Positions 21,891 to 33,742 of a DNA stretch of 45,042 nt are shown here, piece by piece (within the stretch, counting starts at the first letter, position 1; every line of letters begins with the position of its first letter). Below the pieces are notes generated by a model. That model saw nothing but the letters and a program-made list of their open reading frames with translations. It did not search any database and had not been told where the DNA came from. Both the position numbers and the translations under genes were made by a program. Source of the stretch: Chthoniobacteraceae bacterium (GTDB taxonomy: Bacteria > Verrucomicrobiota > Verrucomicrobiia > Chthoniobacterales > Chthoniobacteraceae); assembly GCA_947471505.1 (NCBI GenBank), contig CANIWM010000055.1:1-45042 (forward strand), read 5' to 3'.

Positions 21891-22154
21891 ATGATACTTT
21901 CACTGGAAATGCCCGATGAAATCGCGCGGCAACTTTGTCTGGATGGACCACAGGGGAACCGTCGGGCGCTGGAGGAACTGGCTTTGGAGGGCTTTCGGCG
22001 CGGCGATATTTCACGTGGACAGGTGAGCGAACTTTTGCGGCTTTCTCTATGGGAGACGGAGGCTTTTTTGAAAGAGCACGGCTGTGGAATCGGGATGACA
22101 ACGACTGATTTTGCCAAGGGCTCTCGGGAATTGCGGGATTTTTTGAGCAGATGA
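21891..22154 (+). CDS. UPF0175 family antitoxin
   Basis: An 87-residue small helical protein. The segment ALEELALEGFRRGDISRGQV followed by SELLRLSLWETEAFLKEHG is the UPF0175 signature, a short helix-turn-helix-like region. A purine-rich GAAAGAGG lies just before the ATG. UPF0175 proteins are paired with DUF3368 PIN toxins, as here, with a 4-bp ATGA overlap at 22151. It probably represses its own promoter. Confidence 0.88.
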   Translation: MILSLEMPDEIARQLCLDGPQGNRRALEELALEGFRRGDISRGQVSELLRLSLWETEAFLKEHGCGIGMTTTDFAKGSRELRDFLSR

Positions 22155-22639
22155 GTTTAGTCGTTTCTGACACCACGCCGCTCAACTACCTGATTTTGAT
22201 CGGGGCTGTTGATGTGCTCCCTCAGATGTTTGGTAAGATATTGGTTCCACGGGCAGTGATTCACGAAATGAGCCATCCGAAGGCACCGAAGGAGGTTGCG
22301 GTGTGGGCTGGGAATCCCCCTCAGTGGGTCGAGATTCGATGCCCAATTGTGGACCTTCATCTCGAGTTGGGAGCGGGGGAAAACGAGGCGATTTCCCTCG
22401 TGGTGGAATTGAGCGATGCGGCATTGCTTGTTGATGATAAGAAAGCGCGACTCATAGCCGAACAGCGCGGAGTGTTGGCGTTTGGCACAATCAACATTCT
22501 TGATTTGGCGGATGAGCTGGGATTGCTCGATTTTGAAGAGTCGGTCACGCGACTGTCGGAGACCACTTTTCACATCGAGAAGGCGGTTCTCGATGCTGCC
22601 CTGAAAAAGGTCCGTTCGCGTAATGTAAGTGGTGATTGA
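22151..22639 (+). CDS. DUF3368 PIN-domain toxin
   Basis: A 162-residue PIN-fold ribonuclease. VVSDTTPLNYL places the first acidic metal ligand at D7; LGAGENEAISLVVE and LLVDDKKARLIAEQRGV supply the later acidic residues, and FGTINILDLA is the DUF3368 hallmark. The gene is complete and coupled to the UPF0175 antitoxin. Unlike the other two toxin genes in this window it shows no disruption. The base composition is lower in GC than the flanking genes, consistent with acquisition by transfer. Confidence 0.9.
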   Translation: MSLVVSDTTPLNYLILIGAVDVLPQMFGKILVPRAVIHEMSHPKAPKEVAVWAGNPPQWVEIRCPIVDLHLELGAGENEAISLVVELSDAALLVDDKKARLIAEQRGVLAFGTINILDLADELGLLDFEESVTRLSETTFHIEKAVLDAALKKVRSRNVSGD

Positions 22640-26016: not shown

Positions 26017-26730
26017 ATGAAACGTATAATTCCATTACTGATCGGCATTTCCGCACTCTCGCTCACAGCTTCAGCCTCAACGGTGAGTTGGGGCGTTGAT
26101 AATGATTTCAACATGGTCCTTCATGATGCCCAAGGCGCACTCCTTCGCATTGGGTCATATTTACGGATCGGAACGTTCTCATTGAGCGACATTCAGATTC
26201 AGGCGCTTGCCGAGCCAACTCCTTCAAATATTGCATCGCTCGACGCGGCATTTACTCCGTTCGGCTCAACTGTTGCCCGGATCGGAGGGGATTTCACTGA
26301 TGGCGGGGGTGTTTCGGCGGTTTCTAGTCAAACCCTAGGTTCTTCGAATGCATTAATTGGAGCTCAGATTTACATTTGGGCATTTAAGTCAACAAATGAT
26401 ACGAGTGCGGCACTGAGTTTAAGCACCGCCTTTCAACAAGCTATTTTCTACAGAAACAAAGCGGTCGATGCTGACTGGCAGTTTCCAGGCGACCTTAGTC
26501 CCGCGCCAACTATTGACGCTGGCGACTTGCGGACTGCGGGTGGAGCTTTAGCGTCCGGCGGAGTAATTCTTGCGGGAAGTTTTGTTCCGAACAGCGTAGC
26601 TGGTGCGGCATATAATACGCAAGCGACGTCTGCTATTCAATTGGTAGCGGCAGTCCCCGAGCCTACCTCCGTATTCCTCATCGCCGCTGGTGCAGCGGGG
26701 TTGATGATGCGCCGTCGCCGCCAGAGCTAA
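26017..26730 (+). CDS. PEP-CTERM sorting-domain protein
   Basis: A 237-residue exported protein. The signal peptide is MKRIIPLLIGISALSLTASA. The C-terminus has the full sorting signal: VPEPTS, a hydrophobic helix (VFLIAAGAAGLMM) and RRRRQS, which is recognised by an exosortase and directs the protein to the cell surface. The middle domain has no recognisable fold. The DNA shares the lower GC of the gene before it. A strong terminator follows 27 bp downstream. Confidence 0.88.
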   Translation: MKRIIPLLIGISALSLTASASTVSWGVDNDFNMVLHDAQGALLRIGSYLRIGTFSLSDIQIQALAEPTPSNIASLDAAFTPFGSTVARIGGDFTDGGGVSAVSSQTLGSSNALIGAQIYIWAFKSTNDTSAALSLSTAFQQAIFYRNKAVDADWQFPGDLSPAPTIDAGDLRTAGGALASGGVILAGSFVPNSVAGAAYNTQATSAIQLVAAVPEPTSVFLIAAGAAGLMMRRRRQS

Positions 26731-26757: not shown

Positions 26758-26794
26758 AACGAAGGCAAGCCGCGAGGCTTGCCTTCGTTTTGTT
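26758..26794 (+). terminator. Rho-independent terminator after the PEP-CTERM gene
   Basis: A perfect 14-bp stem (AACGAAGGCAAGCC with its complement) and a GCGA tetraloop are followed by TTTTGTTT. The site should end transcription of the two secreted-protein genes before the PafA/Dop unit. Confidence 0.9.
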
Positions 26795-26815: not shown

Positions 26816-28222
26816 GTGAATCGCATCGTTGGACTTGAAACGGAGTTTGGCTGCCTCGTGACGCGCCAAGATGAGCGCGGCGCTGAGTCATGGCCGGCGC
26901 GCATTAAGAATCACCTGTTCAAAAAAGCGCGTGTCGGCGCACTGGATCGGCATCACCGCGATTATGAAGAGCCTGCTGGGAATGGCGGATTTTTACTGAA
27001 TGGGGGACGCTTTTACCTCGATATGGGGCACCTCGAATATGCGACGCCGGAGTGTCGCACGGTGCGCGATGTGGTGGCGTTCGATTTGGCGGGCGATGCG
27101 ATGATCCAGGCTTCGCTGGACGCGCTCGGAGTCGCGGAGGAAGTGTCGTTTTTGAAGAACAACGTGGACCATCACACGGGCGCGACGTTTGGGTGCCACG
27201 AGAACTATCTGATGCGCCGAGAGACGGAGTTCACGCCCGAGGCGCTTGGCTCGCTGCTCTCTTTCTTGGCGACTCGGCAGATTTTTACCGGTGCGGGTCG
27301 CGTCGGGCAGGCGGACCTGACGACGCATGAGATCGAGCCTTTGCCGCCGTTTGAGCGCGTCGATTTCCAGCTCAGTCAGCGGGCCGATCACATCATGAAC
27401 GACGTGTACCAGTGGGTGCAGTTCAACCGCGCAATCATCAATGCGCGCGATGAGCCTCTGGCGGACTATCGGAAGTATCGGCGGCTGCACCTGCTCATCG
27501 GCGACTCGAATATGTCGCCCTTTGCCACTGCGCTGAAAGTCGGCACGACGCATCTCGTGCTCACACTGCTGGAAGAGGGCCGTCTGCCGAGCAATGTGCT
27601 CCTGCAAGACGCCGTATTCGCCACGCGCTCGGTGTCGAGAGAAGGGCGTGCGGATGCGCCGGTGATTCTCTACGATGGCCGGGCGGAGACGGCGCTGGGG
27701 ATTCAGGAAAAGTTCCATGCTGCTGCCGTAGAGGCGCTTGCGGGGCGGGACGAGGAGACGGATTGGGTGCTGGAGCAGTGGGCGTTTGTCCTCGATGGGC
27801 TGCGGGCGAATGATTTGGAGATGCTGATTGGCGCAGTGGATTGGGCATCGAAGAAGTGGCTGTTGGAGACATTTCGTGCCGAGCAGGGGCTGGCGTGGGA
27901 CGACCCGTGGCTGCAAAGCCTCGACCTTGAATACCACAACATAAACCCCTCACGCGGCCTCTTTTACGCGCTGCCTGCGGTGCCGGAGATCGCGGAGTTT
28001 AATCTGCGAATCCGCCGCGAGAGTGCGCTGCGCGAGCCTCCGCAGGACACGCGGGCGAAGGGGCGGGGAATCGCGGTGGAGCGGTTCATGGAAACGCAGA
28101 TGCCGTATATCGTGAACTGGGATTCTATCGCCGCTGCGGACTTGCATATTTTGCCGATGAGTGACCCATTTATCACCTACGAACAGAACGCCCGCGCGCT
28201 CGTCGAATCTGCGATGATGTAA
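26816..28222 (+). CDS. PafA/Dop family (Pup ligase/deamidase-depupylase) homologue
   Basis: A 468-residue protein of the glutamine-synthetase-like fold that attaches or removes Pup-type modifiers on lysines. The N-terminus RIVGLETEFG carries the metal-binding glutamates (E8, E10); FYLDMGHLEYATPEC holds the catalytic aspartate (D69). NNVDHHTGATFGCHENYLM, FQLSQRADHI, INARDEPLADYRKYRRLHL and GDSNMSPFATALKVGTT all match the family. Motifs near the start (DYEEPAGNGGF) recall Dop, while LETEFG and DMGHLEYAT are closer to PafA, so ligase versus depupylase cannot be decided. Translation begins at a GTG. No Pup/UBact or proteasome subunit gene is adjacent. The stop directly abuts the ATG of the DUF3592 gene. 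Confidence 0.88.
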   Translation: MNRIVGLETEFGCLVTRQDERGAESWPARIKNHLFKKARVGALDRHHRDYEEPAGNGGFLLNGGRFYLDMGHLEYATPECRTVRDVVAFDLAGDAMIQASLDALGVAEEVSFLKNNVDHHTGATFGCHENYLMRRETEFTPEALGSLLSFLATRQIFTGAGRVGQADLTTHEIEPLPPFERVDFQLSQRADHIMNDVYQWVQFNRAIINARDEPLADYRKYRRLHLLIGDSNMSPFATALKVGTTHLVLTLLEEGRLPSNVLLQDAVFATRSVSREGRADAPVILYDGRAETALGIQEKFHAAAVEALAGRDEETDWVLEQWAFVLDGLRANDLEMLIGAVDWASKKWLLETFRAEQGLAWDDPWLQSLDLEYHNINPSRGLFYALPAVPEIAEFNLRIRRESALREPPQDTRAKGRGIAVERFMETQMPYIVNWDSIAAADLHILPMSDPFITYEQNARALVESAMM

Positions 28223-29869
28223 ATGAACACGAACACTGGAACCAAATTGGGAAAAGGCTGCGGAGTCCTGTTTTTCAGCGTCTTCGCGATGTTCGGCGTG
28301 TTTTTCACCGCGATGATGGGGAAGTCCATGCTCAAGGACTGGGAGACGCGGAGCTGGGTGGCGACGCCGGCTGTTTTGCTGGGCGAATCGCCGAAGTTGG
28401 AGAAGGAGCGCGATAGCTCCCGCGAGCCCGTGCCATTCCGATACACCTACGAGGGCCACACCTACACGCAGGATACCGTGACGCTCAAGGGCACCATGGC
28501 GGTGAATGGGAAAAGCTCCGACAGCGGGCGGCGGCTCCGCAATATGCCTGCCGGGACCAAGGTGACGTGCTACGTGAACCCCGCAAAGCCGGACGAGGCC
28601 GTGCTGGAGCATCGCAGCCTCGGCTATGCGTGGTTCCTTTTGCTGCCGGGCGTCTTTTTGCTCGTTGGCGTCGGGGGGATGATCGTCGTTATCCGCGCCA
28701 AGCCCGCGCATCTCCAGCCCGCCTCGGAGCGTCACCAGGGATGGAAATCCAACTCGAACAACAGCACTCGCGGCCTCCGTATCTTCGGCTTTATCTTCGC
28801 GGTCATCGGCGGAGCGGCGACGTGGTTTATCGCGGTAAAGCCGATGCTTGCCGCGCGAGCTGCCGAGAGCTGGCAGGAGGTTCCGTGCAAAATCGAATCC
28901 GCCCGCGTGACGAACCATCGGGGCAGCAAAGGAGGGACGACTTACAGCATCTCCGTGACGTACCGCTACGAAGTAGGCGGGCAAAAATACGTCGGCGACC
29001 GCTACAGTTTCTCCACGGGCTCATCGAGCGGGTATGACTGGCGGGAACAAGCCGTGCGCGAGCTAAAGCGCGACCCGCATCCCGTCTGCTACGTGAACCC
29101 CGACGACCCAAACGATGCCGTGCTCTCCACAAAACTTGGCAGCGATGCGTGGTTCGGCCTGATCCCGCTTGTCTTCCTGATTGTTGGCGTTGGCATCTTT
29201 CTCGGGGCTCCGAAAATGGCTCGCGCTCGCAGTGGACCGAGCGGAATCCCGGTGCCGAAGCCGCAACAAGTGGTATCGCTCGCGCACGGCGGGTTCGAGC
29301 TAAAGCCCAGTGCTTCACCCAAGGCCGCGTGTGTGGGCATGGGTTGCTTCGCCCTATTTTGGAACGGCATCGTGTGGACCATTTTTCTTCAAGCCGACGC
29401 TCCGCTTCCCGTGCGGATGTTTCTCATGATTTTCGTGCTTGTCGGGCTCGGGCTCATTGGAGGATTCGGCTACTTCATCCTCGCCCTGTTCAACCCCAAG
29501 CCCACGCTCATCGCCAACGAGCACTCCGTCGCGCTTGGCCGCTCCATAAAGCTCCAGTGGCGATTCTCTGGAAATACCGCGCGCATTTCCCAGCTCGCCA
29601 TTACCCTCACGGGAAAAGAATCCGCGACCTACCGGCGCGGCACGAATACGACGACGGACACGAGCTTCTTCGTCCATCAAACGATCTTCGAGACTCGGGA
29701 GCGCACGAATATCGCCGCTGGAGAAGTGACCGTCGCCATCCCCGCAAACTCGATGCACAGCTTCGAGGCTTCGAACAACAAGATCATCTGGGCCGTGAAG
29801 CTCCACGGCAACATCGCCAAATGGCCCGATGTGAACCTGGAATTCCCCATCACCGTTCTACCGCTATGA
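28223..29869 (+). CDS. Tandem DUF3592 membrane protein with C-terminal beta domain
   Basis: A 548-residue protein with about six transmembrane segments (roughly 14-36, 134-155, 190-212, 307-329, 371-388, 397-421). Two extracytoplasmic-type DUF3592 domains (about 45-130 and 215-300) share the pattern Y.GHTYTQD/VGGQKYVGDR and CYVNPAKPDEAVL/CYVNPDDPNDAVL, a clear internal duplication. The C-terminal 120 residues form a soluble beta-rich domain (LQWRFSGNTARISQLAITLTG, IPANSMHSFEASNNKIIWAV) that resembles an arrestin/Spo0M-like half. The gene starts at the base after the PafA/Dop stop and overlaps the next gene by 4 bp, so the three are one translation unit. Function unknown. Confidence 0.75.
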   Translation: MNTNTGTKLGKGCGVLFFSVFAMFGVFFTAMMGKSMLKDWETRSWVATPAVLLGESPKLEKERDSSREPVPFRYTYEGHTYTQDTVTLKGTMAVNGKSSDSGRRLRNMPAGTKVTCYVNPAKPDEAVLEHRSLGYAWFLLLPGVFLLVGVGGMIVVIRAKPAHLQPASERHQGWKSNSNNSTRGLRIFGFIFAVIGGAATWFIAVKPMLAARAAESWQEVPCKIESARVTNHRGSKGGTTYSISVTYRYEVGGQKYVGDRYSFSTGSSSGYDWREQAVRELKRDPHPVCYVNPDDPNDAVLSTKLGSDAWFGLIPLVFLIVGVGIFLGAPKMARARSGPSGIPVPKPQQVVSLAHGGFELKPSASPKAACVGMGCFALFWNGIVWTIFLQADAPLPVRMFLMIFVLVGLGLIGGFGYFILALFNPKPTLIANEHSVALGRSIKLQWRFSGNTARISQLAITLTGKESATYRRGTNTTTDTSFFVHQTIFETRERTNIAAGEVTVAIPANSMHSFEASNNKIIWAVKLHGNIAKWPDVNLEFPITVLPL

Positions 29870-30255
29870 TTCGACTCGGCCTTCGCGAAAACATCACGAC
29901 TTTCGAGCCCGGCGAGGAAATCGCGGGCGCAGTGCTGTGGGAGTTTACTGAACTGCGCAAATCGCTCGAAGTTCGCCTCGTCTGGCACACGCGAGGGAAG
30001 GGGACTGAAGACGGCGCAATCGTCGCCACGCAGCCGCTCGATGCCACTACGCTTGCCGACACCGCCACGTTTTCCTTCGTCGCCCCGCAAGCCCCATACA
30101 GCTTCAATGGCACGCTCATAGCCGTCATTTGGGCCGTGGAGTTCGTCGTTAAACCCGGCGAAGAGTTCGAGCGCATCGAGATCACCATCGCGCCCGGCGG
30201 AAAAGAGGTCGTCCTCCCGCGCATCCCGCAGCCGAAGAAAGCATTCGGCAAATAG
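29866..30255 (+). CDS. Small arrestin-like beta-sandwich protein
   Basis: A 129-residue cytoplasmic protein without signal or membrane segments. ITTFEPGEEIAGAVLWEF, SFVAPQAPYSFNGTLIAVIW and the ending FERIEITIAPGG follow the strand pattern of an arrestin N-type domain, and resemble the C-terminal domain of the preceding membrane protein. Its start overlaps that gene's stop (ATGA, 29866-29869). It ends in a basic, proline-containing tail (RIPQPKKAFGK). The fold assignment is by pattern and moderate in certainty. Confidence 0.65.
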   Translation: MIRLGLRENITTFEPGEEIAGAVLWEFTELRKSLEVRLVWHTRGKGTEDGAIVATQPLDATTLADTATFSFVAPQAPYSFNGTLIAVIWAVEFVVKPGEEFERIEITIAPGGKEVVLPRIPQPKKAFGK

Positions 30256-30299: not shown

Positions 30300-30557
30300 A
30301 TGCCAAGCGCGCCAATCATTGATAGTCTGCTAGACCCTGTGAGCCGTTGTTTTACCGCGGAGGCAGCGCGTGCTTTAGCGGAATTGAAAGGGGATGAGGC
30401 GATGCAGCGGCGAATTGAAGAACTTGCCGAAAAGGCCAATGAGGGTGAGCTCACCGAGGGCGAGCGGCGCGATTACGAAACCTACGTCCACGTCGGCAAC
30501 ATCATTGCCATCCTCCAAGCGAAGGTCCGACTCCGGCTCAAACAGGCTGCGGCGTGA
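30300..30557 (+). CDS. Small helical protein paired with HNH nuclease
   Basis: An 85-residue protein, nearly all helical and charged after about residue 20 (ARALAELKGDEAMQRRIEEL, then LTEGERRDYETYVHVGNIIA). Nothing in it shows catalysis. It ends in a TGATG overlap with the HNH gene. Such short helical proteins are often encoded immediately before small HNH proteins in several phyla; whether the two form an antitoxin-toxin or other pair is open. Confidence 0.7.
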   Translation: MPSAPIIDSLLDPVSRCFTAEAARALAELKGDEAMQRRIEELAEKANEGELTEGERRDYETYVHVGNIIAILQAKVRLRLKQAAA

Positions 30558-30955
30558 TGGATGCGGCGACGCGTGAACTGGTGCGCTTGCGAGCCAGCCA
30601 CCGCTGCGAATACTGCGGACTACAACAGCGCCAGATGGCTGTCCGCATTTTCCACATCGAGCATATCATCGCACGCAAACATCGTGGTGGAGATGAGCCG
30701 ACAAACCTCGCCCTCGCTTGCGATCAGTGCAATTTGCACAAGGGCTCGAACCTTTCCGGTTTAGACCCTGATACTGGCGAGTTGGCGCGTCTTTTTCATC
30801 CGCGCCTTGATGTTTGGTCGGAGCACTTTCGGTTCGACGGGCCAGAAATCATTGGCCTGACCGCCTGTGGGCGCACCACCGCGTGGGTGCTACAAATGAA
30901 CTCCGAAGAGCGAATCGAGCTCCGTGCGATTTTAGCGGAGCTTGGGGAGCTGTAG
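30557..30955 (+). CDS. HNH endonuclease
   Basis: A 132-residue nuclease. It has the zinc-binding CEYC (C17, C20), the HNH core FHIEHIIARKHRGGDEPTN with the catalytic histidine region at 33-36 and Asn50, and CDQCN (C55, C58) completing the zinc site. The C-terminal part (about 70-132) is not a known DNA-binding domain. ATG 30557 overlaps the preceding stop; a GTG three bases earlier is possible. Target DNA unknown. Confidence 0.88.
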   Translation: MDAATRELVRLRASHRCEYCGLQQRQMAVRIFHIEHIIARKHRGGDEPTNLALACDQCNLHKGSNLSGLDPDTGELARLFHPRLDVWSEHFRFDGPEIIGLTACGRTTAWVLQMNSEERIELRAILAELGEL

Positions 30956-31031
30956 CGGCGCTCTGCGAGTGCTGTTGAAATCCCGTTCGCATCCTTGCCA
31001 ACGCCTTTTCACCCCGCCAGCATCCCCAAAC

Positions 31032-31598
31032 GTGAGCGCCAAGGAAAATCCATTTGCCAGTGTGAAAATCGAGAGTCTGCCCTTCCGCTTTCCTGTCGGG
31101 ATGTCCTGGGATACACTGCTCAAGCGGCTCGAAGAACTGCGCTGGTGCGCCAGCATCGTCGGCGGCAACGGCGTGGGCAAAACCACGCTCATCGAGCAGC
31201 TCCTCCCCAAGCTCGAAGAGCGCGGATACCAGCCCGTCGTCATCCGCCTCAACGCCGAGACGAGTATGCGGGAAAAAGACCGCCTCCCCGAAAAGCTCCG
31301 CGAGATCGTAGCGCCGCAATTTATCATCATAGACGGTGCCGAGCAGCTCTCCACGCGGCACTGGCTGCCCGTTCGCGGCGCGGCGAGTAAAGCGGCGGGC
31401 TTCATCGTCACCGTTCATCGTTCCAGCCGTCTCCCCGTCGCGCTGGAGCTGGAGAGCAATGTGAAACTCTTTGAAGGACTCGTCACCGAACTCTGCGGCG
31501 GCAAGCTTCCCGAAGACGAATCGCACACCATTTTCCTGCGCAATCGCGGCAACATCCGCGAGTGCTTCCGCGAGCTTTACGACCGCTGGAACGGCTGA
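31032..31598 (+). CDS. P-loop ATPase (AAA/TniB-like), function unknown
   Basis: A 188-residue protein with a Walker A motif GGNGVGKTT (44-52) and a Walker B-like FIIIDGAEQL. The order (short N-terminal helix, P-loop, RLNAET strand, Walker B, then GFIVTVHR as sensor-like) resembles small AAA-type ATPases such as TniB/MuB or ATP-binding proteins of DNA systems, but no such partner is near. Start is uncertain: GTG 31032 is used; ATG 31101 would cut into the domain. It begins 76 bp after the HNH gene and ends 3 bp from the convergent dehydrogenase. Confidence 0.65.
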   Translation: MSAKENPFASVKIESLPFRFPVGMSWDTLLKRLEELRWCASIVGGNGVGKTTLIEQLLPKLEERGYQPVVIRLNAETSMREKDRLPEKLREIVAPQFIIIDGAEQLSTRHWLPVRGAASKAAGFIVTVHRSSRLPVALELESNVKLFEGLVTELCGGKLPEDESHTIFLRNRGNIRECFRELYDRWNG

Positions 31599-31601
31599 CG
31601 C

Positions 31602-33680
31602 TTACTTCGTCGCCATCCGTCGGGCGATGAACTCTGTCACTTTGGGAATCTTGCACGCGGCGAGTGCTTCCGTCGCCCACACGGGGTCGGCGGCGACGAT
31701 GGGCTCGGCGGCATACCAGAACATCAGCGGCAAATTGTGGTCGTCCTTGTCTTCCTCGTGCGCGAGCAGGGCGAGCACGATGGGCTTGCGCTGCTCGATG
31801 GTGAGACGTTGGCAGAGGCTTGCTGCGGCGCGGCGCTCGACGGCACTTCCGCCGGGCGCGGCGGCTTTTGCGGCAGCGGCGGCGTCTGCGAGGACGGCCT
31901 TTGTCGGCGCGGCTGGACGCGGAGCGCTGTTGGTCGCTTTCGAGCCTTTTTTCACGAGCTTCAGGATGCGCCCCGTGGTGAAATCGTGCGCCTCTTTCTG
32001 CGTGCGGTGGCATTGATTGAGGTCGTACCAATCAATCATCCACAAGCTCCCGTCGCGGTCCTCGCGGATGTCCACGATCTGGCTGGCTTTGTCGTTGAAG
32101 TTGATGAAGTCCGCGCCGTGATGCCCTACGCAGCCGCTGCCTTTTGCCTCCAGAATATCCATGTTGATCCGCGAGCCGTGGATGTTCCCCATGATTACGC
32201 CGCCGCGCAGATTTTCCGGCCACGAGGGATGCTGCAAAATGCACAGTCCAGCGTGCGCGTGCCCGCCGCCAGCCGTGTCGGATTTCCCGTTTCCGCCGTG
32301 CGGATTTGCGCCGAGGTAGTGGCGGTGGTCGGCGATGGTTTTGATGTCGTCGTAGGTGTTCGTATTAAAGTGCTGGCCGGCCTGCCGCTCGTAGCGTCCA
32401 CCGTCGAAAATATGGAAGAGATGCGGGATCACGCACGCTTCGATGAACAGCTCGCCGTCGGCATTCCAGTCCATGCCCCACGGGTTACTCGTGCCGTGCG
32501 CGAAGACCTCAAATTTCTGCTGCTCGGGTTGGAAGCGCCACACGCCCGCGTTGATCTTTGTGCGCTCTGCGGCGGTTGTTCCGGGCTTGCCGACGTTGCT
32601 GCTCACGAAGACGCCGTGGCAGCCGTAGAGCCAGCCGTCGGGCCCCCAGTGAAAGGTGTTGAGCGTCTCGTGCGCGTCGTTGTAGCCCCAGCCATCGAGG
32701 AGCGCCTTCGGCTCGCCCGCAGGCGTCGGTGCGTCCCAATTCGTCACCGGCACGAAATACAAATACGGCGCAGCCCCGAGCCACACGCCGCCGTTGCCGA
32801 CTTCGATGCCGCTGACGAGATTCAGCTTATCCATGAAGACGGTGCGTTTGTCGAATCTATGGTCGCCGTCCGTGTCCTCGAAAATGAGCACGCGGTCCTT
32901 GCCCTCGCCCTCCTTCGCCCGGTTCGGGTAAGTCATTCCTTCCACGACCCAAGCCCGTCCGCGCTCATCGAGGCAAAAGGAAATCGGGTTCACGATGTCC
33001 GGTTCCGCCGCGAAAACCTTCAGTTCGTAGCCCTCCGGCACCGTCGCCACACCGGGCACTTGCTCCGGCTTCAGTCCTGCGTTTTGGACGACATCGGCCA
33101 CGAGCGCGACTTGCGTTTTCTGCGCCGCAGGCAGCTTTGGCTCCTCGGCGTGAAAAACAAAATCGTCGAAGCTCACGTGCCCCCAATGCTCCGTGTGCTC
33201 ATCCACCAGCCGGATGAAAATCTCCCGCCCCGCAAACTTCCGCAAGTCCACGACCGAGCGGCGCAAGTCCTCGCGCTGGTCGCTGTGCGCGGTGTGGATG
33301 ACTTTGCCATCGTCCTTCGTCACGATGTCCACGCGCGTCTTCTCCGTTTCACCGCCAGCCACGAGGAAGCTGGCCCACGGCTGGGTGACTTTGAAAGCGG
33401 ACGATGTGAGAGTGCCGGTCGCCTTGTCATTTTGATGCACCTCAAAGCCGCCGATCCAATACTCCCCGGCATGGTTGCTCTTCATATCCGCCCGCCGCTT
33501 GGTCACCGTATCGCCCTTGATGGGCTGCTTCTCAAACGCCGTCCCTGTCGCCGTCCAGCCGTCGAGCGTGCCGGTTTCAAACCCGAGATTCAGCGGCTTG
33601 CCATCGGCCCCGACGGGCACGATGGGAGCCTGAGCAAAAATGGCGACGGAGCTGGCGAGAAGGAATAGCGGTGTTTTCAC
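31602..33680 (-). CDS. PVC-type membrane-bound dehydrogenase domain protein, short form
   Basis: A 692-residue exported protein with signal KTPLFLLASSVAIFAQA. Residues about 30-180 look like a carbohydrate-binding beta domain (LNLGFETGTLDGWTATG). The rest is the beta-propeller of the Pirellula/Verrucomicrobium dehydrogenase family: VPEGYELKVFAAEPDIVNP, WVVEGMTYPNR, FHWGPDGWLYGCHGVF and MIDWYDLNQCHR. Relatives commonly continue with HEAT repeats and a C-terminal heme-binding domain; this one stops after FIARRMATK, where such a region would begin. GTG 33680 has AGGTG at good spacing; GTG 33686 is the alternative. Confidence 0.85.
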   Translation of the reverse strand: MKTPLFLLASSVAIFAQAPIVPVGADGKPLNLGFETGTLDGWTATGTAFEKQPIKGDTVTKRRADMKSNHAGEYWIGGFEVHQNDKATGTLTSSAFKVTQPWASFLVAGGETEKTRVDIVTKDDGKVIHTAHSDQREDLRRSVVDLRKFAGREIFIRLVDEHTEHWGHVSFDDFVFHAEEPKLPAAQKTQVALVADVVQNAGLKPEQVPGVATVPEGYELKVFAAEPDIVNPISFCLDERGRAWVVEGMTYPNRAKEGEGKDRVLIFEDTDGDHRFDKRTVFMDKLNLVSGIEVGNGGVWLGAAPYLYFVPVTNWDAPTPAGEPKALLDGWGYNDAHETLNTFHWGPDGWLYGCHGVFVSSNVGKPGTTAAERTKINAGVWRFQPEQQKFEVFAHGTSNPWGMDWNADGELFIEACVIPHLFHIFDGGRYERQAGQHFNTNTYDDIKTIADHRHYLGANPHGGNGKSDTAGGGHAHAGLCILQHPSWPENLRGGVIMGNIHGSRINMDILEAKGSGCVGHHGADFINFNDKASQIVDIREDRDGSLWMIDWYDLNQCHRTQKEAHDFTTGRILKLVKKGSKATNSAPRPAAPTKAVLADAAAAAKAAAPGGSAVERRAAASLCQRLTIEQRKPIVLALLAHEEDKDDHNLPLMFWYAAEPIVAADPVWATEALAACKIPKVTEFIARRMATK

Positions 33681-33742
33681 AGGCACCGCACCTAGCGGGA
33701 TGCACTAAGTGGTGGAACCAAAAATATCGCGTTTCCTTGTGC

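Follow-up and report, generated by a model that had tools for sequence, protein, structure and literature searches.

A probable UBact ligase gene beside an apparently independent DUF3592-arrestin-ATPase gene module in a Chthoniobacteraceae bacterium

The UBact/Pup-proteasome system comprises PafA, Dop, a modifier (UBact or Pup), the proteasome subunits PrcA and PrcB, and an ARC/Mpa ATPase. In the lineages surveyed in the part of PMC2588565 used here, Pup and PafA are encoded by neighbouring genes. The same part describes membrane-linked ligases in Plesiocystis and Rhodopirellula, which lie beside a membrane-protein gene, carry four transmembrane (TM) helices inside the ligase and have no link to proteasome genes. 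A second family of interest is the arrestin clan, which includes ARRDC3, TXNIP, VPS26 and Spo0M; in the consulted part of a 2008 survey of arrestin origins (PMC2515105), Spo0M is the bacterial and archaeal branch of this clan. Here, we analysed a stretch of 45,042 nucleotides, contig CANIWM010000055.1 of the Chthoniobacteraceae bacterium assembly GCA_947471505.1, which is hereafter called the window. It contains a pafA-like gene (gene 1), a gene for a DUF3592 membrane protein (gene 2) and a gene for a protein of 129 amino acids (gene 3). Our best reading, with a probability of about 0.68, is that a UBact ligase gene and an independent split-arrestin module, formed by genes 2 and 3 and a small ATPase gene, lie side by side.

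All parts of the UBact/Pup-proteasome system are present in the window's genome, but pafA is not beside the UBact gene and the genes are found on five contigs. The locus shares with those of Plesiocystis and Rhodopirellula a ligase homologue next to a membrane-protein gene; in contrast, the window ligase shows no helical insertion of this kind and its genome has proteasome genes. Both lobes of the module resemble the arrestin clan by predicted fold. They differ from it in being located on two proteins, one of which has a membrane part and two DUF3592 domains, and their sequences stay below the Arrestin_N cut-off of Pfam. The module ATPase shares Walker A, the Walker B Asp and a GN-x-R motif with AAA+ ATPases of the ORC/clamp-loader kind, but differs by its length of about 190 amino acids, an NPF motif and a Walker B of D-G type, and its top profile matches are other P-loop proteins. 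The main features are as follows.

26816..28222, + strand: gene 1, PafA-type ligase of 468 amino acids with a GTG start (PF03136, 423 bits; TIGR03686; tree and alignment)
28223..29869, + strand: gene 2, DUF3592 membrane protein of 548 amino acids with a C-terminal arrestin-like lobe at about 425-548 (PF12158; predicted model; fold searches)
29866..30255, + strand: gene 3, stand-alone arrestin-like lobe of 129 amino acids (predicted model; Foldseek and VIA)
30942-31598, + strand: P-loop/AAA-type ATPase, the recurrent third member of the module (relatives in 45 of 73 loci; alignment of 36 rows); its gene start is uncertain, and the conserved part opens near the NPF motif

Genomes, contigs and loci are referred to by our own numbers (G, C and L, respectively), the window's genome being G000 and its contig C55. 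The recurrence of the module, its gene order and its fusions were observed in two collections. In a phylum sample of 387 genomes, relatives of gene 3 were found in 28 genomes, and in 25 of these (all except G187, G276 and G388) a relative of gene 2 is located directly upstream. A scan of a species-genome collection with one short pattern, a search that undercounts and possibly omits near relatives of the window's genome, gave 73 loci from Verrucomicrobiota, Planctomycetota, Acidobacteriota, Lentisphaerota, Kiritimatiellae, Thermoanaerobaculia, Hydrogenedentes and others. With a threshold of E < 1e-10, 58 of these loci have genes 2 and 3, 11 have gene 2 only and 4 are without an open reading frame (ORF) match. 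The ATPase gene also occurs in 45 of the 58 pair loci, while PafA occurs in two, L149 and L150, which belong to G032 and G025. The spacing of genes 2 and 3, measured partly from starts of hidden Markov model matches, corresponds to a 4-base overlap in 23 of the 58 loci, to at most 30 bp in 21 and to 31-400 bp in 13, and one locus (L169) has a fused gene. Genes 2 and 3 form one ORF in four genomes in all (G124, G179, G299 and L169). Of 43 measured loci, 42 have the ATPase gene no more than 400 bp from gene 3; in L169 it follows directly behind the fused gene, and in L171 it is on the other strand, about 2 kb away. A second set of 24 pair loci, whose genomes are partly shared with the first, has the ATPase in 15; it lies about 5 kb upstream of gene 2 in L128 and about 1 kb behind gene 3 in L127. 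Among ORFs of at least 80 amino acids within 5 kb, no other neighbour recurs widely, the top extra family being found in 7 loci at varying positions; we take it to be an ABC-F-like ATPase.

Outside the family Chthoniobacteraceae, PF03136 was found in none of 31 genomes tested, 24 with the gene pair and 7 with gene 2 only. We are thus highly confident that the DUF3592-arrestin-ATPase module is independent of pafA. The original prediction had offered, as a testable inference, a three-gene unit working as a membrane-linked ligase module. This is not supported: PafA/Dop is lacking in 24 of the 24 pair-bearing genomes tested, and the ATPase, which recurs as third member with the pair, lies beyond the three genes that the prediction had joined.

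The ATPase family of about 190 amino acids has Walker A, the Walker B Asp and the GN-x-R motif. Invariant in the 36 aligned rows are an N-terminal N-P-F, the Walker A Gly and Lys and the Walker B Asp, together with a single His, Arg and Tyr. In 33 of the rows the residue after the Walker B Asp is Gly (D-G instead of D-E). The matches of its profile in the PDB are P-loop proteins, and the longer ones, weak and spanning the domain, include ORC5, RFC2 and RarA (E about 1e-4). Among the 25 Pfam families listed for it, no match reaches the cut-off.

The proteins of genes 2 and 3 were folded separately. The gene 3 model, with a predicted local distance difference test score (pLDDT) of 94.5, can be described as a single seven-stranded sandwich. 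In Foldseek, the N-lobe of ARRDC3 came first (E 2.9e-7), followed by TXNIP, VPS26, Spo0M (5cl2, E 5.4e-5) and arrestins, with template modelling scores of 0.5-0.7 by model length. VIA aligned it to VPS26A with Z 12.9 and a root mean square deviation (rmsd) of 2.6 over 110 residues, and to the C-lobe of arrestin-2 with Z 11.4 and an rmsd of 2.3 over 109. The gene 2 model (pLDDT 84.2) has helices 8-42, 133-158, 178-214, 307-336, 366-388 and 395-422, and a sandwich at 425-547. Its lobe matched ARRDC3 first in Foldseek (E 3.0e-6), with Spo0M (5cl2) at E 2.1e-5, and VPS26B in VIA (Z 12.4, rmsd 2.5 over 126). Over the rows quoted, the best matches of both lobes have Z of about 12 to 13 and rmsd of 2.0-3.1 over 109-126 residues. 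By the guidance of VIA itself, a best Z of 7 to 8 is typical of models that have no clear match. By these models, both lobes adopt a predicted arrestin-like fold. In sequence, gene 3 has a sub-threshold match to Arrestin_N (12 bits versus 24.9; one homologue reaches 16.9), and the Pfam family of Spo0M gave no match at E up to 1. PF12158 (DUF3592) matches gene 2 in two stretches with 95.6 bits (cut-off 25.3). The six long hydrophobic helices of the model would place both ends of the protein on one side of the membrane. The helix-DUF3592-helix units of gene 2 are also faintly like the beta subunits of BK channels (CaKB, E 0.0027, below the cut-off, residues 110-156; Foldseek 6v22_E, 1.7e-4).

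Gene 1 matches Pup_ligase (PF03136, cut-off 25) over model positions 1-440 of 441. Residues E8 and E10 align with the GhExE motif and D69 with the Asp of the YLD motif of the solved PafA; the D69 column has Asp in 4b0t and Asn in 4bjr. The role of the GhExE motif is given in the part of PMC2588565 used here, and the role of the catalytic Asp and the definition of the Dop-loop in that of PMC7947786. The Dop model gives gene 1 307 bits over part of its length, below the cut-off, and a single-sequence search against the solved chains gives 240 for Dop and 211 for PafA, the PafA match being longer. The Dop-loop stretch, which is present in AcelDop and 11 Dop-type rows, is mostly missing from the window copy and 17 orthologues. 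The alpha-loop region of gene 1 is unlike both solved reference enzymes. A tree was made of 18 window-type rows, 11 rows of the type of the second PafA/Dop homologue of the genome, on contig C10, and the 2 solved anchors; the copies of G032, G019 and G018, which are near-identical or broken, and the remaining second copies were left out. The C10-type rows group with AcelDop (98/95) and the window-type rows form one clade (100/99) outside the Dop clade. Within it, the window and G025 copies are sisters (100/100), and the G032 copy is 99% identical to that of the window. Gene 1 was also considered as a Dop and rejected, as it lies outside the Dop clade (98/95) and is without a full Dop-loop. Judged by its sequence, gene 1 belongs to the PafA side of this family. 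By tree, Dop-loop and scores, the window copy is assigned as the PafA-side partner of the C10 Dop, and not as the plain paralogue that the original prediction had allowed for.

The draft assembly of the window's genome is 96.7% complete and has 153 contigs. It encodes two PF03136 proteins, the window copy, which is the sole PafA-type one, and the C10 copy, which has a Dop-type insert and scores 388 bits against the solved Dop and 237 against the solved PafA (455 for Dop versus 358 bits for PafA by the NCBIfam models, both below cut-off). UBact (NF033388) was found with 79.5 bits (cut-off 35) and a tail that reads ...RYKQRTGE; its gene is six bases ahead of a bacterial-type proteasome beta gene (PrcB model, 175.6 bits, cut-off 191.9). 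The proteasome alpha model (PrcA) gives 62.7 bits (cut-off 139), and both subunits pass the Pfam proteasome cut-off. An ARC/Mpa-like ATPase scores 453.7 bits (cut-off 504.75), the next match in the genome being at 131. Pup itself was not found, PF05639 having no match in the genome. The genes are spread over contigs C55, C39, C3, C27 and C10; PrcA is apart from PrcB, while UBact adjoins PrcB. In two relatives, by genes recognised by eye, the PafA orthologue is closer to the pathway, lying about 1 kb from the UBact, PrcB and PrcA genes in G020 and about 2 kb from PrcB in G017.

From these sequence matches, this Prosthecobacter-like verrucomicrobium very probably has a UBact-proteasome pathway that is complete, though its genes are scattered, and the window enzyme is very probably its PafA-type ligase. 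By analogy with the family, the gene 1 product would join the C-terminal Glu of UBact (...YKQRTGE) to substrate lysines, and the C10 gene would serve as Dop. The orphan enzyme of the original prediction has thus to be given up, since four other contigs encode UBact, both proteasome subunits, the ARC/Mpa-like ATPase and the Dop-type copy; its proposed search for Pup or UBact and proteasome genes finds UBact and the proteasome genes, scattered, and no Pup. What it had read from the letters otherwise holds. The coordinates agree with a zero gap between genes 1 and 2 and a 4-base ATGA overlap of genes 2 and 3, the strong terminator before them corresponds to a hairpin with 14 pairs at 26758-26789, and the PafA/Dop homologue with an intact active site, the DUF3592 membrane protein and the arrestin fold of the 129-residue protein and of gene 2 residues 425-548 are all borne out by the matches, alignment and models above.

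Within the family, 40 genomes were sampled, of which 21 have PafA/Dop matches. PafA orthologues are present in 20 of the 40, each accompanied by a second, lower-scoring copy, and the 11 second copies included in the tree are all Dop-type. Genes 2 and 3 follow pafA in 3 of the 20 PafA loci, those of G000 (the window), G032 and G025. The three genes are not neighbours in the other 17, so that the gene order of the original prediction is not conserved; these 17 include L055, which ends about 200 bases past pafA, and L059, which breaks at a truncated pafA. In G026, G027, G001, G039 and G017 the pair is found on a contig that does not carry pafA, with the ATPase alongside in G027, G001 and G039. 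The module probably arrived behind pafA once, before the split of G000, G032 and G025.

In the window, the ATPase gene is separated from genes 2 and 3 by two genes. G025 (L042) is without the HNH pair at this junction, and its ATPase ORF starts 15 bases past the end of the arrestin gene. The remaining features of the region are listed below.

26758..26789, + strand: intrinsic-terminator-like hairpin with a 14-pair stem, upstream of pafA
30300-30557, + strand: gene of 85 amino acids, between module genes
30554-30955, + strand: HNH endonuclease gene, overlapping the 85-amino-acid gene, between module genes

The HNH protein resembles PADLOC models of PtuB (best E 9.9e-13). Terminator-like sites number 7 in the region versus a mean of 5.4 in shuffled sequences, so that only the long 14-pair stem is notable. 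A gene for a PEP-CTERM protein (26017-26730, + strand) lies directly before the terminator. After the module, the gene at 31602-33686 (- strand) encodes what we take to be a PVC-type dehydrogenase-like protein (PVC, Planctomycetes-Verrucomicrobia-Chlamydiae). A look-alike of this gene, judged by eye, starts about 3.8 kb past the pafA start in G030 (L043); the module may thus have entered an older pafA neighbourhood. Further upstream, at 21891-22639 (+ strand), two overlapping small ORFs resemble an antitoxin and PIN-type toxin pair.

The proposed split-arrestin mechanism has in our view slightly less than an even chance of being right. The C-terminal lobe of gene 2 and the free lobe would pair into a two-lobed arrestin-like scaffold on the cytosolic side of the membrane, with the DUF3592 domains facing outward, and the ATPase, with its Walker A, Walker B Asp-Gly and sensor 2-like GN-x-R, could be an ATP-dependent switch or partner of the scaffold. 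The wider proposal is more tentative, and we consider it possible at odds of no better than one in three: a bacterial split arrestin, in which a membrane-tied lobe under two DUF3592 domains and a free lobe would be joined under ATP-binding, AAA-type control, may form a cargo- or signal-selecting scaffold in PVC bacteria and Acidobacteriota, of a kind not described before. That it is not described rests on literature searches within one collection of papers, which returned nothing joining DUF3592 with arrestin or DUF3592 with Verrucomicrobi. Likewise, they returned nothing joining UBact, Verrucomicrobia and PafA, and the part of PMC7203096 that was searched has no mention of UBact.

Several observations weigh against the side-by-side reading. 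Gene 1 reaches 334.3 bits over the full TIGR03686 model, the PafA equivalog, which is below the cut-off of 551.3; it is therefore placed only on the PafA side of PF03136 and not as an equivalog. PafA, Dop, PrcA, PrcB and ARC are all below their NCBIfam equivalog cut-offs, and the models above cut-off are only UBact, the Pfam proteasome family and Pup_ligase. The branch of CgPafA in the tree is very long, so that the place of the window type beside PafA is based on its separation from Dop, on its reduced Dop-loop and on elimination. In the fold searches, the non-arrestin sandwich 8wac appears further down for gene 3 (E 5.3e-4) and SoxYZ lower in the VIA list of the gene 2 lobe (Z 10.2). The profiles of the two lobe families match each other only weakly (hhalign probability 17%), and the charges of the loops give just a weak preference for a cytosolic C-terminus. 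The ATPase was not found in 13 of the 58 pair loci, where some contigs end, or in 9 of the 24 loci of the second set. The pairing of the lobes, the topology and the partnership of the ATPase are all inferred. Finally, G000 and G025 keep the junction of pafA and module despite 60% identity of gene 2 and 87% of PafA. PafA is present in 8 of the 8 family genomes that carry the pair (Fisher 0.0036, kinship uncorrected), and in 11 of the 12 with any relative of gene 2 (Fisher 0.0015, kinship uncorrected). With this surviving coupling and co-occurrence, a lineage-specific link between PafA and the module is possible, though very improbable.

These last points bear on a membrane-anchored arrestin adaptor, which would recruit substrates to the PafA/UBact ligase, at least in the window clade, as alpha-arrestins do for Rsp5/Nedd4. 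The coupled order in three genomes, the arrestin-like lobes, the presence of PafA in every family genome with the pair and the membrane-linked Pup ligases proposed for Plesiocystis and Rhodopirellula in the part of PMC2588565 used here would agree with such an adaptor. We nevertheless hold it to be very improbable, since adjacency to pafA is limited to three close genomes (3 of 20 PafA loci, and 2 of the 73 loci, from the same genomes), PF03136 is missing from all 31 genomes elsewhere that have the pair or gene 2, and the recurrent partner of the pair is the ATPase. Moreover, the alignment of gene 1 to the PafA model is full-length, so that a large TM insertion as in membrane-linked ligases is not expected. 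As a general system, the arrestin adaptor is ruled out by the distribution, with PF03136 in 0 of 31 genomes. About as improbable, and marginally more so, is a true orphan enzyme, which would use a different modifier or a small molecule and stand outside the UBact pathway. Its alpha-loop region and its score far below the PafA equivalog cut-off would fit such a role, but the genome encodes UBact, the proteasome and Dop and has no PafA-type copy besides gene 1, its orthologues are accompanied by a second copy in 20 of 40 family genomes (Dop-type in the 11 cases in the tree), and orthologues lie near UBact-proteasome genes in G020 and G017.

For the module itself, the strongest competitor is a stress- or development-type regulator like Spo0M, whose lobes would act as a signalling scaffold without cargo sorting. 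Both lobes have Spo0M (5cl2) among their structural matches, and the part of PMC2515105 used here assigns it to bacteria and archaea as their arrestin-clan family; Spo0M is a single protein, in contrast to the split lobes of the module, one of them on a membrane protein and with an ATPase added, and we regard this regulator as unlikely, at perhaps one chance in four. A conflict or anti-phage system is less likely still. It would account for the patchy distribution of the module over phyla, its changing neighbours and the HNH pair inside the window copy; however, PADLOC gave no match for genes 2 and 3, its matches to the ATPase are confined to short and weak P-loop ones (best 0.00041), and gene 2 has no match in plasmids or phages and gene 3 none in plasmids. 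A mobile element was rejected on the same searches, gene 2 having no match in the plasmid and phage collections and gene 3 none in the plasmid collection, the only one run for it.

The side-by-side arrangement of a UBact ligase gene and an independent split-arrestin module indicates that tight gene order in one genome can mislead, as the recurrent ATPase partner was located just outside the stretch first singled out. The scattered UBact pathway of the family is a smaller fact, useful for annotation. The module occurs in phyla that are often discussed for their membrane biology, and a conserved set of genes in which an arrestin-like protein is divided between a lobe tied to the membrane and a free one, with an ATPase added, would make the role of the lobes in bacteria directly testable.

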